Shown one piece after another: positions 28,224 to 36,867 of a stretch of 64,000 nt of DNA; the first letter of the stretch is position 1, and each line of letters starts with the position of its first letter. The DNA lies in assembly GCA_913057435.1 (NCBI GenBank), contig CAJXNY010000023.1:1-64000 (forward strand). The letters are read 5' to 3'. The position numbers and the translations under genes were made by a program. This DNA comes from an uncultured Oceanospirillaceae bacterium. Lineage in GTDB: Bacteria; Pseudomonadota; Gammaproteobacteria; Pseudomonadales; Balneatricaceae. Under the pieces are notes generated by a model, which was not told the DNA's origin, did not search any database, and worked only from the letters and a program-made list of their open reading frames with translations.

Positions 28224-29567
28224 TTGTGCATTGGAGCACTTATGTTTTCGTCTCGAATTAAAAAGCAGTTAGCTGACAGTCAGGCTGCTCTGGCGCAGAG
28301 TGAAGCCCGTTTTACTGCTATCAGTCGCTCCATGGCCGTTATCGAGTTCGCCCCGGATGGGCGGGTAAAAACGGCAAATGATAATTTTCTTCGTTTGATG
28401 GGCTATAACCTGGCTGATATTCAGGGCGAGCACCACCGGATGTTCTGTGAGCCGTCTTACACCAGCAACGCAGAATACAGCAACTTCTGGCAGATGCTGA
28501 ACCGGGGTGATTTTTTCTCAGGCCGCTATCTGCGGCTCAATAAACAGGGCCAGACGGTCTGGCTGGAAGCCAGTTATAACCCGGTGTTTGGTGCCGATGG
28601 TAAACTGGAAAGTGTGATCAAGTTTGCCTCTGATGTCACCGAACGCATGGAAAAGACGCAGCGTCAGACCAGTATCATCAACGCGATCGACCGCTCGATG
28701 GCGATGATCGAATTTAATTTGCAGGGCGACATTCTGGTGGCTAACGACAATTTCCTGTCGACCACCGGCTACATGCTCAATGACATCAAGGGCAAACATC
28801 ACCGGATGTTCTGTACCTCGGATGAGGTGAACTCCCAGCAATACAGCCAGTTCTGGCAGCGGCTGAACCGGGGCGAGTATATTGCCGGCCAGTTCAAACG
28901 GGTGAACAAGTTTGGTGATGTGATCTGGCTGGAAGCTACCTATAACCCGGTATTTGATTCGAATGATAAATTGGCCAAAGTGGTCAAGTTTGCCACCGAT
29001 ATTACTGCCAAGGTGAATCGCCAGGCGGCGGAATCGGAAGCGGCTCGCATGGCGTACGATATCTCGGTGACGACGGATGAAACTACCCAGCAGGGTGAAC
29101 AGGCGGTGCAGAACGCCGTTAGTCTGATGAGCGAACTGGCAGATACCACCCGTGCGGCCTCCGATCATATTGAAGCACTGAATGCCCAGTCTGAACAGAT
29201 TGGCTCCATCGTTAGCACCATCAAGGGGATTGCCGAGCAGACTAACCTGCTGGCTCTGAATGCGGCGATTGAGGCGGCCCGTGCCGGTGAAGCCGGGCGT
29301 GGTTTTGCCGTGGTTGCCGATGAGGTGCGCCAGCTGGCGGCCCGTACCAGTGACTCCACCACAGAAATCACCAATGTGGTGAAGAAAAACCACGACCTGG
29401 CTCAGCAGGCCGTATCCACCATGTCATCCAGCCTGGAGCTGGCTGAGAGTGGTCTGGGGATGGTTAATGAAGCCGGTGAAGTGATGCTCGATATTCGTGG
29501 CAAGGCACAGAGCGTAGTCAGCGCTATCGAAGAGTTCGCCCATACTCTGGATGATGTTTCCCCTTAA
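28224..29567 (+). CDS. PAS-PAS methyl-accepting chemotaxis protein without transmembrane segments (BdlA-like)
   Basis: Two tandem PAS domains ('[26 protein letters not shown]', '[26 protein letters not shown]') and MCP signalling hairpin '[51 protein letters not shown]'. Confidence 0.9.
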
Positions 29568-29592
29568 GGTCGTCCCCGCCGACGCTGGCTGT

Positions 29593-30975
29593 TCAGGGCT
29601 GGCGTCGGTAATTCCCCAGATCGCTCTGCCAGTACATTTCCCCCTTATCGACAAAGAATAGATGCGTAGCACCGCCATCCTCTGCGGTTCTGAAACGCCG
29701 TTCGCTAACGGCGAGCAAGGCGGTGCTACGCCCCTCCTCGATATAACTTAACTGACCATTTTGTACGCGCGTTGTCAGCGTAGCAGGCTGATGCTTGCGA
29801 CCCGTAAAACGTGAGGTGACAGCCTGCCAGCGGCCGACCAGCGGGGCCAGTTGCTCTGTGGTCAGCGGTAGTACGTCAATGTCTGGTGCGGGCAGCGGTG
29901 CGGTGACCCACTTTTCCAGTGGCGCGCGCAGTGCCTGCAAGGCGCGGTAGTGGTAAGCATTAATCACCACAAACATGCCGCGTTGACTGTCGGGGTTGTA
30001 GGCAAAATGAGCCAGATAGCCATCACCATCACCACCATGCCCGAGTAACAGTTTTCCATTGCGATACCAGCGGTAGATTCCGGCACCATAGCCGTAGTCA
30101 TGCCCCAGCCTGGCGGCATGGGTTGATTGTGGCTGCTCCATCCGTTGAATCTGTTTTGAACTCAGCAATAATTGACCCTCGTACTGGCCCCGGTTGATCA
30201 GTAGCTTCAATAGCTGACTGAAATCTGCAGCGCTGGTATTGAGCGCGCCGAAAGGCCGAAACAGGGTGTGCCAGTAGGGGATGGGCGTGGTGCGGTCAGT
30301 ATCATAGCCGGTGACAAGTTGTTGTTGCAGCAGGTCGCTGTACTCAGTGCCGGAATCAGACATGTGCAGAGGCGTTAGCAGATTATCGGCGACCCAGCGG
30401 TCCCATGGCTGGCCCGTCACCTGTTCCAGCACCCGCCCGGCATAGCCTGCACCGGCATTGCTGTAGCTGTGATGTAACCCCGGTGGCCATTGAACCTGGC
30501 GGGCTTGAGGGGCAACCTTAAACGCTTCGCCCAGCGATAATGGCTGCGGGTAGTCAAACTCGACCCTGGTCAGGTCTTGCAGCCCGGCGCTGTGTTCCAG
30601 CAACATATTCAGGGTGACCGGTATGGCAGTTGGGTTATGTAACGGTATGTCTGGCAGGTACTGGCGCAGCGGGGCATTCAGCTCGACCAGACCCTGGCCT
30701 GCCAGCTGGTGCAGGCTCAGTCCGGTAATCAGCTTGGTCAACGAACCGACTCGAAATACCGAGTGGGCGGTGACTGGCCGCTGTTTTGTCAGTGAATAAA
30801 ACCCCAGCCCACCTTGCTGTACTGTGGTGTCTGCTTCGACCAGTGCCCAGGCCAGCGCACCGATCTGATACTGCTGGCGTATCTCATTTAACTGGGTCGG
30901 AAGCCTGTTCAGCGCAGCGGCGTTGCTGTGCGTGATATAAAGACATAACAGTAAGGTCAGTGACGCACGGAACAT
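29593..30975 (-). CDS. Serine beta-lactamase-fold hydrolase (class C / PBP4*-like), secreted
   Basis: 'FRVGSLTKLITGLSLHQL' (SxxK), 'YSNAGAGYAGRVLE' (YSN), 'LGHGGDGDGY'; signal peptide. Confidence 0.88.
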   Translation of the reverse strand: MFRASLTLLLCLYITHSNAAALNRLPTQLNEIRQQYQIGALAWALVEADTTVQQGGLGFYSLTKQRPVTAHSVFRVGSLTKLITGLSLHQLAGQGLVELNAPLRQYLPDIPLHNPTAIPVTLNMLLEHSAGLQDLTRVEFDYPQPLSLGEAFKVAPQARQVQWPPGLHHSYSNAGAGYAGRVLEQVTGQPWDRWVADNLLTPLHMSDSGTEYSDLLQQQLVTGYDTDRTTPIPYWHTLFRPFGALNTSAADFSQLLKLLINRGQYEGQLLLSSKQIQRMEQPQSTHAARLGHDYGYGAGIYRWYRNGKLLLGHGGDGDGYLAHFAYNPDSQRGMFVVINAYHYRALQALRAPLEKWVTAPLPAPDIDVLPLTTEQLAPLVGRWQAVTSRFTGRKHQPATLTTRVQNGQLSYIEEGRSTALLAVSERRFRTAEDGGATHLFFVDKGEMYWQSDLGNYRRQP

Positions 30976-31026
30976 TAGGCGTTCTCCAGCTTCAAAACAG
31001 GTTCGATCAGACATTGGGGGTTAGCA

Positions 31027-32403
31027 GTGCAGCGAATAATACGGCGTGTCATCGGAGTACTGTGCCTGCTGCTGGCAACGCCGCTGTGGGCGCAGGTGTT
31101 TGATTATCAGGTGCGCTTTAATCGCAGCCTGACCGAATCCGAGACCCGTGTCTGTTTCAGCGATAGCATACCCCGGATGCTGATCACCGGCGATATAGCT
31201 GCGGCTCCGTTGTTAGCCGAGGTGCAGGTCCGTGGCGGCACCGTGCGGCGCAAGGCGAACCGGCTCTATCTGTTCCCGGACTCCGACCAGCTGTGTCTGA
31301 CTCTGGTGCAGCGCGTTAAGGCACAAAGTAGCAGCTATGACTGGCGCCGTCAGCGCAGAGGGAGCATGTGGTTTGGGCGGGATCTGGTGTTGCCCATTGG
31401 CAGCTGGCTCTGGCGTCCAGCGAAACTGACACCCGGGCAGCAGATCCAGCTTAGCTTTGATCTGCCCGCAGGGGTTAATATCTCCGCACCCTGGCCTGTA
31501 ATGGCAGCCAATACTTTTCGTATCGATCACCAGATGCCCTATAACTGGGCTGGCCGCATGGCTCTGGGGCGGTTTACCCCCATTGAGCTGAAGGTGGGAG
31601 AGCAGACGCTGGAAGTGGCAATGCTCGACGGACTGGAGCGACGGCGCAACCTGCTCGACTGGTTACAACAGGCAGCCACAACGGTTGCAGGGGTCTCCGG
31701 TTATTTCCCCACGGCCCGTACCCAGGTGCTGGTGCTGCCTGTCGGTGTGGATAAAGAAGCGGTTCCCTGGGCTGAGATCCAGCGCCAGGGGCGTCCGGCG
31801 GTCCACTTTTTTATTGATCAGCACCGGCCGATTTATGAGTTCACCCGTGACTGGACGGCGGTGCATGAATTCAGTCACCTGTTGCATCCTTATATCCTGC
31901 GTCAGGATGCCTGGCTGTTTGAAGGCATTGCCAGTTATTACCAGAATATTTCCCGTGTCCGTAGTGGTTTGCTGACAGAGCAACAGGCCTGGCAGAAACT
32001 CTATGACGGTTTTCAGCGAGGCAGTAAAAAAATCGGTGGCGCAGTGCTGCGCGACAGTAATGAAATTATGCAGTTTTACTGGGGTGGAGCGGCCTTCGTG
32101 CTGATGGCGGATGTAGAACTGCACCAGCGTTCAGGCCAGTCGCTGGCGGGTGTGCTGCATCGTTTTCGCCAGTGTTGCGGCGAGGATATGGGTCCCTGGA
32201 GTGCCAAAGTCATGTTGCGCCAGCTGGACCAGCTCAGCCAGGGGACAACCTTTATTCAACTATACCGCCAGCAGGTCAGTCGGCGGGCTTTCCCGGCGGT
32301 ATATGGTGTACTCGACCAATTGGGTGTTAAGGTTCGCAATGGCCGGGTATCCCTGGATAATGCTGCCCCGCTGGCAGGTATTCGTCGAGAAATTACACGT
32401 TAA
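31027..32403 (+). CDS. Secreted gluzincin-like HExxH metalloprotease-fold protein
   Basis: Signal peptide; 'TAVHEFSHLLHPYILRQDAWLFEGIASYYQNI' (HExxH and downstream E). Confidence 0.75.
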   Translation: MQRIIRRVIGVLCLLLATPLWAQVFDYQVRFNRSLTESETRVCFSDSIPRMLITGDIAAAPLLAEVQVRGGTVRRKANRLYLFPDSDQLCLTLVQRVKAQSSSYDWRRQRRGSMWFGRDLVLPIGSWLWRPAKLTPGQQIQLSFDLPAGVNISAPWPVMAANTFRIDHQMPYNWAGRMALGRFTPIELKVGEQTLEVAMLDGLERRRNLLDWLQQAATTVAGVSGYFPTARTQVLVLPVGVDKEAVPWAEIQRQGRPAVHFFIDQHRPIYEFTRDWTAVHEFSHLLHPYILRQDAWLFEGIASYYQNISRVRSGLLTEQQAWQKLYDGFQRGSKKIGGAVLRDSNEIMQFYWGGAAFVLMADVELHQRSGQSLAGVLHRFRQCCGEDMGPWSAKVMLRQLDQLSQGTTFIQLYRQQVSRRAFPAVYGVLDQLGVKVRNGRVSLDNAAPLAGIRREITR

Positions 32404-32627
32404 GAAAAAACACTTTCGATAATAGATGTGAATGTTTGTTTGATTAGAATAATGAAACTACAAATTAGTCTAATATCATAAACTTCAATCATTAGACTTT
32501 GGCATGATTACTTATGTTTCTCCTGTTTTTTGTTAAAACATTCGCTGCATCCGTATTCAAAGCTGGTGGATATAGTGGTAGGATTGCTCGCCGCTTTAAG
32601 ATGGAAAGCTGCTTCTAATAAGAATTT

Positions 32628-33560
32628 TTGAGAAAGGATTTCTCTATGAGTAATGAAAAAAACCTTACTTTTTGGGTTAAAGATAGTATAGCGAAAAAAA
32701 TAACCGATGCCGTTTGTTCAATGCAAAATGAAGGTTTGTCTAGAACTCTGGATGCAGCTTTTTTCATAAAAAAAACATTGCCTGAAGAAATAATATTCGC
32801 CTTAGAAAATATTGGTAGCAAGGGTTCTTTACACAATTCTATTGTTATCCATGGGCTATTTGAATCAAATGATCCCGATGTTGCTCTGACCATTCATGAA
32901 TCTGTTTCTCGCTACTTGTGTGGTATCAATGACATTCAATATAGGTATGAAGACCATAAGGCTATCTATCCTAAGTTAGAGGGCAGGATGTCTTCTGAGT
33001 GGGGGAATGGTGTTGGAGAAATATCACCTCACTGCGATGATTTATATGAGAATATTGATTCTGATCTTCTGTCCCTTACCGTTGTTAAGGATAATACCTT
33101 GTGCCCCACACTCATATATAATTCAAATGAACTCGTAGATTCATTGTCGGAAGAAAGTCAGGCGTTATTAAAAGTAGCCCCAGTTAGATACCGATCCGGT
33201 CGAAACGTTGTTGGTGAGAAAATTGAACGTATTCGCCCTGTTATTGAACAAAATGGCGATGATGTTCTATATAACATTGATTTTAGAGTCGAGAGAAACT
33301 ACGGGGACCGGATGGTTGCTGTTGATATTGAAAATCAGTCTCTGATTGATCAGCTAAGATCCAATCTTAATCACGTTAAACCAGTCTCGGCGGATGGTAA
33401 ACCAGGAACCTTTCTTGTGATTAATAATCGAAAAGTTCTGCATTCCAGGGAAAAAATCCCCAAAGAACAGACCTTTTCTAAGCCGGAAGAGTCTGATCGG
33501 TTACTTTTTAGATCAAAAGGTCAAAAAGCCATACTAAAAAGCATCAGCTCATTAGGTTGA
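32628..33560 (+). CDS. Fe(II)/2-oxoglutarate-dependent oxygenase, clavaminate-synthase-like (TauD superfamily)
   Basis: HxD 'ISPHCDDLYENIDSDLLSLTVV', distal His 'PGTFLVINNRKVLHSREK', C-terminal Arg 'SDRLLFRSKG'. Confidence 0.78.
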   Translation: MRKDFSMSNEKNLTFWVKDSIAKKITDAVCSMQNEGLSRTLDAAFFIKKTLPEEIIFALENIGSKGSLHNSIVIHGLFESNDPDVALTIHESVSRYLCGINDIQYRYEDHKAIYPKLEGRMSSEWGNGVGEISPHCDDLYENIDSDLLSLTVVKDNTLCPTLIYNSNELVDSLSEESQALLKVAPVRYRSGRNVVGEKIERIRPVIEQNGDDVLYNIDFRVERNYGDRMVAVDIENQSLIDQLRSNLNHVKPVSADGKPGTFLVINNRKVLHSREKIPKEQTFSKPEESDRLLFRSKGQKAILKSISSLG

Positions 33561-33622
33561 TATTTCCTGTTTCCTGTCGGGAAGGTTAGATCGCTCTGGC
33601 CTTCCAGCTCTAAAGTGTAACT

Positions 33623-34570
33623 ATGAACGGAATAATAAATGCTATACTCCCTATTGTTGGCTTGCTGGCAATAGGTTACTTTTGTAAAAAAAATTGGATT
33701 AAAGATAGCAGTTTCTGGAATAATGTAAATAAACTTATTTATTACATAATGTTTCCTTGTCTTATGGTTAGTTCAATTGGGCGTGCTAACTTTGACGAGA
33801 CCACTGATTTCTCTTTCATCCCTGTTCTTGTCTTTATTGTTATCTTTTTTGTTGCATGTATATGGTTAGCAAAGCCGCTTTTTAAAAGTGAGGGGTTTTG
33901 GGTTGCTTTTATTCAGGGAGGAGTTAGGTATAATAGCTATGTCTTTATAGCAATTACTTTGTTTTATGTTGATGATGATGTTATGCCTGTCATCGCACTT
34001 ATTACAGCCTTTCTGGTTATGACAACAAATGTTATTAGTGTGTTTATTCTTAATAAATATTCTGAAAACAAACTGGGGCAGGTAGATACGATACTTGCTA
34101 CGCTGAAAAACCCTCTTGTCTTTTCTTGCTTGCTTGGACTTGGTGTTAATGCGTTGTCTCACCTGATTCCAATAATCACCCACATTACCTGGATTAATAA
34201 TATGCTAGGGCATATTGGTAAGGCGTCGCTTACCTTAAGTTTGATGTCTGTGGGCGCATCACTAAATTTTGGCGTATTTAAGGATAATTTAATGGAAATT
34301 ATTCTGTGCTCTGGGGTTAAGTTGATTTTGTTGCCATTGACCGTTGTATTCGTATTATTAGTGCTCGATTTTGACCCGTTGCTTACGCTTGTCTGTATGA
34401 TTTATGCGGGTAGTCCCTGTTCCTCTAATGCGACGGCAATGACTCAGGCGATGGGGGGGGATTATGAGTCAATGAGCATGATAATCAGTGTGCAAACTGT
34501 TTTATCAATTCTGACACTACCTGTGCTTATGTACGGTTATTCAGTCTACGTTACTTCCCTGGCGCTTTAG
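33623..34570 (+). CDS. AEC (auxin efflux carrier) family permease
   Basis: Polytopic; 'ILPIVGLLAIGYFCKKNWI', 'GKASLTLSLMSVGASLNFG', 'AGSPCSSNATAMTQAMGGD'. Confidence 0.85.
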   Translation: MNGIINAILPIVGLLAIGYFCKKNWIKDSSFWNNVNKLIYYIMFPCLMVSSIGRANFDETTDFSFIPVLVFIVIFFVACIWLAKPLFKSEGFWVAFIQGGVRYNSYVFIAITLFYVDDDVMPVIALITAFLVMTTNVISVFILNKYSENKLGQVDTILATLKNPLVFSCLLGLGVNALSHLIPIITHITWINNMLGHIGKASLTLSLMSVGASLNFGVFKDNLMEIILCSGVKLILLPLTVVFVLLVLDFDPLLTLVCMIYAGSPCSSNATAMTQAMGGDYESMSMIISVQTVLSILTLPVLMYGYSVYVTSLAL

Positions 34571-34589
34571 TGACCTGAAAATCGATATC

Positions 34590-34641
34590 AGGAATCTGTC
34601 GGGTTTTCCGCAGTTGGTCATGTCAAATTCGACAGGTTCCT
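34590..34641. terminator. Imperfect inverted repeat between convergent AEC and TetR genes
   Basis: AGGAATCTGTCG ... CGACAGGTTCCT (12-bp arms, one mismatch). Confidence 0.45.
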
Positions 34642-34649
34642 GGTGGTGC

Positions 34650-35213
34650 TTACTTGTTTGTTTGTATTGATGCTACGCAGCTGGCCAGTAGTGATTCAGC
34701 CAGTTCATCATCATTCAGGGCGCGGGCGACTGCCAGCCCACCGATCATCATTACTGCCGTTTGCAGAGCTTTCTGGGTTACCGCTGTGTTAGTGGCCGTT
34801 TCGGATGAGGTGTCATTCTGCTGTTTGCGTTGTATTAACTGAATGAAACCACGAAATGTCTCCGTCCAGGCGTTACGTACCAGTTCATCCCGCTGGGCAA
34901 CGTCGCTAATCAGAAATGCCAGTGGGCACTGAAATTGCTCACTGTTACGGTGCGCCATGCTGAGATAGCTCTGACAGGTCTGCTCCAAGCTGGATTCCTG
35001 GGCCGCCAGTCGCTGTGCTGTGGCGCGGATGGTTTCACTGTACAGTTGCGACTTTGAATTGAAGTGACTGTAAAAGGCCCCCCGGGTCATGCCTGCTGCC
35101 TGCATTACTTCATTGATACCCACCTGATCAAAGCCCTGTTTACTGAATAACTCACCTGCGGCACGGAGAATGCGTTGTCGGCTGTCGTTTTTGTGCTCTG
35201 GGTGCCAGCTCAT
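34650..35213 (-). CDS. TetR/AcrR-family transcriptional regulator
   Basis: 'RQRILRAAGELFSKQGFDQVGINEVMQAAGMTRGAFYSHFNSKSQLYSE'. Confidence 0.93.
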   Translation of the reverse strand: MSWHPEHKNDSRQRILRAAGELFSKQGFDQVGINEVMQAAGMTRGAFYSHFNSKSQLYSETIRATAQRLAAQESSLEQTCQSYLSMAHRNSEQFQCPLAFLISDVAQRDELVRNAWTETFRGFIQLIQRKQQNDTSSETATNTAVTQKALQTAVMMIGGLAVARALNDDELAESLLASCVASIQTNK

Positions 35214-35353
35214 ATCTGTGCTCCATCTATGTCTGTGGTAAGAACCGGGTATTGTTGCAGTTTGCCAGAGTCCGAAAATATGTTCTTGATCATATTCTGT
35301 TCGGCACGCAGTCTGCCGCTACTAATATGACTGTGAACAGAGAGAAATTGGTT

Positions 35354-36001
35354 ATGCAGCAAGATATTCAGATCCTGGGCCCGACCTTCAGTACCTTCGT
35401 TCGTACGGTGATGCTGTGTTGTGAAGAAAAGGACATTCGTTATCAGGCCGGACTGAGCTGGGATGGAAACGAGATCGGCTTCAAAAGTGCTGAGCGTTAT
35501 GCACTGCACCCCTGGGGCAAGGTTCCGGTGATTAAACATCAGGGGCTGACGCTCTATGAAACCGCCTCAATTCTGCGCTATCTCGACGGCATGTTCGATG
35601 GTATAGCGTTACAGCCTGTGGACCCGGTGCTGCGGGCGCAGGTAGATCAGTGGTGTGGTGCACTGGGTAGCTATGTGGATAAAGCGCTGGTGCGGGATTA
35701 TCTGCTGGAGTTTGCCTTCCCCAAAGGGGAGAACGGTGCGGTCAGGCTGGCTGAGGTGGCCCAGGCTGAACCTGCTGTCAAAGAGACGCTGGCGTTGCTG
35801 AACACTCAGCTGGGTGAGCAGTCATTCCTGTGTGGTGAGCAACTGAGCCTGGCAGATCTGATGGTGCTGCCGATGCTGGATTACCTGGCGGGATTACCTC
35901 TGGGAGGTGGTCTGTTAGCTGAGCAACCCACGTTAAACGCTTACCTTCAGCGCCTGCGTGCACGACCGTCAGCCCGGACGGTCCTTCAAACTGCCAGCTG
36001 A
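35354..36001 (+). CDS. Glutathione S-transferase family protein
   Basis: 'ILGPTFSTFVRTVMLCCEEKDIRYQ', 'NPWGKVPVI'-like 'HPWGKVPVIKHQGLTLYETASILRYLD', C-terminal GST helix bundle. Confidence 0.9.
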   Translation: MQQDIQILGPTFSTFVRTVMLCCEEKDIRYQAGLSWDGNEIGFKSAERYALHPWGKVPVIKHQGLTLYETASILRYLDGMFDGIALQPVDPVLRAQVDQWCGALGSYVDKALVRDYLLEFAFPKGENGAVRLAEVAQAEPAVKETLALLNTQLGEQSFLCGEQLSLADLMVLPMLDYLAGLPLGGGLLAEQPTLNAYLQRLRARPSARTVLQTAS

Positions 36002-36867
36002 GTTGCCAGCCAGGCTTGAAACTTTTCAAATGCAGCGCTCGCCGGGCGCTGCTTCGACCAGAGTAACGCGTAGCCGTAGGGGCTGTCGTTCTCCACGTCA
36101 CAGGCCACTACCAGTGAGCCGTCTGCCAGCTCCCGCTGGATCATCTCCCGGTCAAATAACAGGAACAGATCGCCCAGCATGCAGGCTTCGATTGCCTGAG
36201 CGCCGTTCTGCACCGACATGCTGCACCGTTGCCGGTCGGCCTGAATACCATGGCGGGCAAACCAGCTTTTCCAGCGATCGCTGTGGGCGGCAACATCCAG
36301 CAGAGGTTGATGTTGCAGCTGGTGGGCGCCCAGTGGCTGGCTGAAGCGCTTGAGCAGCGCTGGACGGCAGACAATTACGGATTGTTCGGCCAGTAAAAAC
36401 TGCTGATTGACCTGTGGCCAGCGGTGGTTCCCATGGCGGATCAGGCCATCCACTTGCTGGCTTTCAAGATCAACCTGTTCAGTGGTTGCCTGAACGGACA
36501 GTTCAATATCCGGGTAATGAGACTGGAAATCACTGAGCCGGGGCATCAGCCAGCGGGTAGCAAAGATCGGTGCGCAGCTGATACGGACTACCGGCTGGGT
36601 GGGTTGTAGCGCCAGCTCGGCGGCATGGTGCAGCTGATGCAGGGGCTGGTTGATGCTCTGGTAAAGGGTGCGACCAGGCTCGGTCAGGCGGACCTGCTTA
36701 TCCAGCCGATGAAACAGCTTGTAACCTAGTTGTCGTTCAAGGTTACGGATCTGATGGCTGACAGCCGATGGGCTGATATGCAGCTGTTCGGCGGCCCGCT
36801 GGAAGCTTTCGCCCCGGGCGGTACAGGCAAATGTATTAAGGCTGTTAAGCGGGATTTTGAAATGCAT
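35986..36867 (-). CDS. LysR-family transcriptional regulator
   Basis: 'LNSLNTFACTARGESFQRAAEQLHISPSAVSHQIRNLERQLGYKLFHRL'. Confidence 0.93.
   Translation of the reverse strand: MHFKIPLNSLNTFACTARGESFQRAAEQLHISPSAVSHQIRNLERQLGYKLFHRLDKQVRLTEPGRTLYQSINQPLHQLHHAAELALQPTQPVVRISCAPIFATRWLMPRLSDFQSHYPDIELSVQATTEQVDLESQQVDGLIRHGNHRWPQVNQQFLLAEQSVIVCRPALLKRFSQPLGAHQLQHQPLLDVAAHSDRWKSWFARHGIQADRQRCSMSVQNGAQAIEACMLGDLFLLFDREMIQRELADGSLVVACDVENDSPYGYALLWSKQRPASAAFEKFQAWLATQLAV

Follow-up and report, generated by a model that had tools for sequence, protein, structure and literature searches.

What does a bacterium gain from a two-gene island whose base composition differs from that of the DNA around it? 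The question arises from a 64,000-nucleotide stretch of DNA (the window), in which a gene for an Fe(II)/2-oxoglutarate (2OG) oxygenase is directly followed by a gene for an auxin efflux carrier (AEC) permease (Table 1). An earlier note, made from the sequence of this stretch, had pointed to the pair as an amino-acid hydroxylase with a dedicated transporter.

Table 1. Features of the AT-rich cassette and its surroundings (positions are those of the window)
Feature	Position	Strand	Basis
AT-rich island holding the cassette	32404..34640	none	GC 0.35-0.40 versus 0.55-0.60 outside
AT-rich leader, presumed promoter region	32404..32645	+	Non-coding, between the M61-like gene and the oxygenase gene
Fe(II)/2-oxoglutarate oxygenase resembling clavaminate-synthase-like (CSL) enzymes, 304 aa	32646..33560	+	ORF, domain searches, alignments, predicted fold
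AEC (auxin efflux carrier, Mem_trans) permease, 315 aa	33623..34570	+	PF03547; L002 counterpart 67% identical

The shift in composition that the note had described between about 32.4 and 34.6 kb was borne out by the drop in GC and by the codon third positions (GC3) of both genes. Past about 34.6 kb, GC rises again to about 0.50 and further on to 0.58. Among the 53 window open reading frames (ORFs) of at least 150 aa, the oxygenase (GC3 of 0.316) and the permease (0.378) have the two lowest values, against a mean of 0.631 (SD, 0.072) and a third-lowest value of 0.562. The genes that flank the cassette, an M61-peptidase-like gene upstream and TetR and GST genes downstream, are near normal in composition. 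The window cassette is foreign by composition. An Rfam search near the cassette returned no match for the leader, and its single match, to gyrA, was sub-threshold (E = 0.42) and lay within the M61-like gene.

The note had also called the cassette recently acquired. Acquisition agrees with the foreign composition, but the word "recently" has composition as its sole basis, and near relatives yielded no empty site in which both junctions could be read. In the nearest relative (G424), with flanks about 90% identical to the window, contigs end at window positions 30534 and 34918, which leaves the cassette region unread. In another relative (G425), the counterparts of the chemotaxis gene and of the LysR gene adjoin each other; between them, G425 lacks the beta-lactamase-like and M61-like genes, the cassette genes, and the TetR and GST genes (window positions 28224 to 36867). 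The M61-like gene was also not found in the three other members of the genus. The segment from about 29.6 to 36 kb is thus variable, since G425 is without the intervening genes there; the junctions of the cassette itself are unreadable. Searches of plasmids, phages, and IMG/VR gave no close relative, so no carrier element was identified.

Among 85,462 species genomes, we found one close relative, in a Marinobacterium metagenome-assembled genome (MAG) of the same genus as the window genome (G425, locus L002). There, an oxygenase 56% identical to that of the window precedes an AEC permease with 67% identity to the window permease, in the same gene order, and the pair sits between an RND efflux operon and leuS, a locus different from that of the window. 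The stretch upstream of the L002 copy is also AT-rich, yet it has no detectable DNA similarity to the window leader. Within the family, 2 of the 117 genomes carry the oxygenase gene, namely the window genome and G425. A class-wide genome sample yielded one further oxygenase, from another gammaproteobacterial family (G742; 35% identical; E = 1.3e-51), and this gene is directly followed by azlC and azlD. The G742 cassette is AT-rich for its host as well (GC of 0.28 to 0.33 versus 0.43 in two neighboring genes). The earlier note had named in advance three outcomes that would speak against its proposal, which were a GC content like that of the flanks, a pair that never co-occurs elsewhere, and motif residues that do not align with CSL enzymes. 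We found instead that GC differs, that the pair recurs in a second genome at another locus, and that the motif aligns.

In a tree of 25 proteins, built from the three oxygenases and 22 other CSL enzymes with no non-CSL outgroup, the three (window, L002, and G742) formed a 100/100 clade behind the longest internal branch. This clade, known from three members of which two belong to one genus, is far from every characterized CSL enzyme in the tree. A codirectional polytopic gene lies downstream of the oxygenase in 3/3 members; the base rate for this arrangement is 8.9%, which is conservative because the sampled loci themselves include exporters.

The oxygenase ORF is intact; its length was counted from an ATG, and an alternative TTG start is possible at 32628. 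Its sole Pfam match was TauD (PF02668), at 22.8 bits and under the gathering cutoff of 27 (the L002 copy scored 23.8 bits, and the G742 copy had no match), and its sole NCBIfam match was clavaminate synthase Cs1, at 15.9 bits versus a cutoff of 450. Several alignments placed the HCD...H...R residues singled out by the note on those of clavaminate-synthase-like enzymes. H129, D131, and H266 aligned with the His, Glu/Asp, and His of the CSL iron triad. Halogenases are without the carboxylate iron ligand, and we rejected a halogenase reading because D131 is present. R285 fell on the arginine that binds the 2OG carboxylate (P18) and R289 on the arginine that binds the substrate carboxylate (P19), which reproduces in the alignment the R-x-x-x-R of CSL enzymes. 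The substrate-carboxylate arginine is present in every CSL group (PMC6224419, from which the P18 and P19 definitions are taken). E102 aligned with a near-invariant Glu of the set and may correspond, by sequence alignment, to CSL position P2, a Gln or Glu that contacts the substrate amino group.

The Lys/Arg-type CSL hydroxylases have an acidic DXXD sub-pocket formed with a lid Asp (P12) and a further Asp at P15 (PMC6224419). In our alignment, a conserved Gly185 occupies the position of the lid Asp, and D212 may match P15. A cationic substrate therefore appears unlikely, and we judged Lys or Arg unlikely as the substrate from the aligned sequences. This qualifies the assignment of the enzyme to the Arg, Asn, and Lys type of hydroxylase made in the note: the CSL-like motif stood, but the oxygenase belongs to a separate deep clade in which the lid Asp is replaced by Gly.

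A profile of the three-sequence clade matched only two PDB entries, both weakly (NapI [6daw], E = 0.03, and KDO1, a lysine 3-hydroxylase, E = 0.19). A structural model from a three-sequence alignment was poor (pLDDT, 57) and was superseded by one from a 12-sequence alignment, which reached a pLDDT of 83.4 and a pTM of 0.87, with the caveat that this alignment contained CSL homologues, which could favor a CSL-like model. The best 46 PDB structure matches of this model were all CSL enzymes (TM score, 0.61 to 0.70), with KDO1, clavaminate synthase, OrfP, CmnC, AsnO, NapI, KDO5, and VioC among the structures matched. The oxygenase is thus predicted to have a CSL fold. Since the clade is far from the characterized CSL enzymes, the proposal of free amino acids as substrates draws on R289 and this predicted fold.

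The permease ORF is also intact and begins 62 bp after the oxygenase gene. It scored 67.5 bits against Pfam Mem_trans/AEC (PF03547), above the cutoff of 25.7, which confirms the family named in the note. The genome of the window has two other AEC genes, whose products are 24% identical to the window permease. We know of no bacterial AEC member with a proven hydroxy-amino-acid cargo. The substrates and direction of AEC proteins are unknown in most bacteria, and a 2022 analysis called their substrate specificity "completely unknown" for bacteria (PMC9330825).

Transporters also occur beside more distant CSL enzymes. We found immediate or near neighbors of the LysE type (G274, Agrobacterium vitis, and G787), of the DMT/EamA type (Sulfobacillus, G787, and G1249), and of the MATE (G507), MFS (Rahnella, Burkholderia, and one GntD locus), and TSUP (Klebsiella plasmids and Vibrio) families. 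In an unbiased class-wide sample, an adjacent codirectional transporter was present for 3 of the 8 strong CSL hits, versus the 8.9% base rate (P = 0.028), and for none of the 5 weak hits. Several Streptomyces examples lie in biosynthetic clusters with no obvious dedicated exporter adjoining the gene. We rejected the statement that all CSL enzymes adjoin exporters, given the 3/8 in the unbiased sample; a transporter beside a CSL enzyme is a recurring theme but no rule.

Some of these distant loci have features of their own. On two conjugative plasmids of Klebsiella pneumoniae, a TauD/TfdA-type dioxygenase gene, a TSUP transporter gene, and a GNAT acetyltransferase gene have the same layout (L037:3255-5573 and L038:3255-5573), and a search with the dioxygenase matched 40 Klebsiella plasmid records. 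Plasmid p319 of Vibrio coralliilyticus (L039:3147-5846) carries a dioxygenase, which the tree shows as a relative of the Klebsiella set, together with an NAD(P)-dependent oxidoreductase and a TSUP transporter. A natural-product-like cluster in G1249 (L027:1919-12896) holds a CSL oxygenase, an ATP-grasp ligase, two heme-oxygenase-like iron enzymes, a carbamoyltransferase, and EamA and LysE transporters. In G787 (L059:3790-9717), genes for a POT-family transporter, an EamA exporter, and an amino-acid permease surround a CSL oxygenase gene and share its orientation. The CSL oxygenase gene of G730 (L061:4966-7076) overlaps a gene for a PLP enzyme of beta-eliminating-lyase/threonine-aldolase-like type, and this enzyme could split a beta-hydroxy amino acid. 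In G493 (L064:3431-5546), a radical-SAM/SPASM gene directly precedes the CSL oxygenase gene, which suggests a peptide-modifying cluster.

We consider it probable that the window cassette is a horizontally moved operon whose role is to hydroxylate a free amino acid and to send the product out of the cell. With Fe(II), O2, and 2-oxoglutarate, the oxygenase would add a hydroxyl group to the side chain of some free alpha-amino acid other than Lys and Arg, with a neutral one most likely. The AEC permease would then release the hydroxylated amino acid from the cell, and the product could function extracellularly as an antimetabolite, signaling molecule, or chelator. We infer the hydroxylation outcome, the substrate class, the outward direction of AEC transport, and the biological role. 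In Bacillus subtilis, AzlCD has an established role as a promiscuous exporter of amino acids (PMC10882977). AEC and AzlCD are unrelated and occupy the same place behind the oxygenase, which suggests a shared need to move an amino-acid product outwards.

The same anatomy would also suit a resistance trait, in which the oxygenase inactivates a toxic amino-acid analogue of environmental origin, with the permease expelling that analogue in its original or its oxidized form. AzlCD protects against toxic amino acids and their analogues, 4-azaleucine among them (PMC10882977), and a mobile two-gene cassette with a scattered distribution is what such a trait might look like. However, no sequence feature points to a toxic substrate, and most characterized CSL enzymes are biosynthetic, as is well established (PMC6224419). 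Gene anatomy alone does not separate this explanation from oxidation and export of an amino acid; weighing both sides, we regard detoxification as unlikely.

Transport in the opposite direction would make the cassette a catabolic module, with the AEC permease importing a carboxylate or an amino acid and the oxygenase beginning its breakdown. TauD relatives are often catabolic, and "malate permease" is the annotation that some AEC proteins carry (PMC9330825). The partner in G742 is, however, an exporter, and a downstream catabolic gene or an importer component was found in none of the three cassettes, which makes import for breakdown quite improbable in our estimation. It is also conceivable that two unrelated genes came to lie on one AT-rich fragment by chance, since three members are known and both AEC copies could stem from a single ancestral pairing. 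Against this, the order is preserved at 56 to 67% protein identity in a second genome and at another locus, and in the third member the equivalent position is taken by a different exporter. The probability of 3/3 at the base rate is about 7e-4 if the members are independent, which the window and L002 strictly are not. We give coincidence very little credence.

Beyond the single locus, the window cassette may be one case of a class of minimal mobile cassettes that join a CSL-type amino-acid oxygenase to any exporter (AEC, AzlCD, LysE, DMT, MATE, MFS, or TSUP) and supply the surroundings with hydroxylated amino acids that work as antimetabolites or signals; the clade would then form a new subfamily acting on a new amino-acid substrate, and the permease would be a bacterial AEC protein with an amino-acid cargo. 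We offer this wider view as a speculation that we presently lean against. If the proposed oxidation and export by the window cassette is right, a bacterial AEC permease would have a substrate hypothesis open to testing, and there would be a usable rule, namely that the exporter adjoining such an oxygenase gives a hint of the product class of the enzyme. The clade adds a deep, uncharacterized branch to the oxygenases, kin to the selective C-H hydroxylases employed as biocatalysts.

Compared with the CSL amino-acid hydroxylases (KDO1, KDO5, AsnO, VioC, OrfP, CmnC, NapI, and clavaminate synthase), the window oxygenase shares the predicted fold, the iron triad, the 2OG arginine, and the substrate-carboxylate arginine. 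It differs in being a separate deep clade, with 13 to 20% identity in structural alignments, in having HxD where those enzymes have HxE and Gly185 where the Lys/Arg type has its lid Asp, and in its own clade motifs, YEDHKA and SEWGNGxGxIS. The permease passes the same PF03547 profile as the AEC/Mem_trans permeases of the YfdV and malate permease type. AzlCD, which stands next to the G742 oxygenase where the window has its AEC permease, is a two-subunit system that is absent from the window cassette. A literature search limited to open-licence papers found none that treats this oxygenase clade or an AEC partner for it. The closest precedent is the IDO operon of Bacillus thuringiensis and the Hil operons, in which, as in the window cassette, an amino-acid dioxygenase is encoded with an exporter; there, a free-amino-acid dioxygenase and the exporter RhtA are proposed to release a bioactive product (PMC3684760). 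Those dioxygenases belong to PF10014 and PF13640 and usually come with a reductase, and their exporter is RhtA rather than AEC, whereas the window cassette has neither a PF10014 or PF13640 dioxygenase (TauD being the sole Pfam match) nor a reductase. The reading in the earlier note is to be qualified in this respect too, since operons of a hydroxylase and an exporter were already published, but their proteins are unrelated to those described here. The coupling of an amino-acid dioxygenase to an exporter is already known; what the window adds is an unrelated enzyme clade and an AEC partner.
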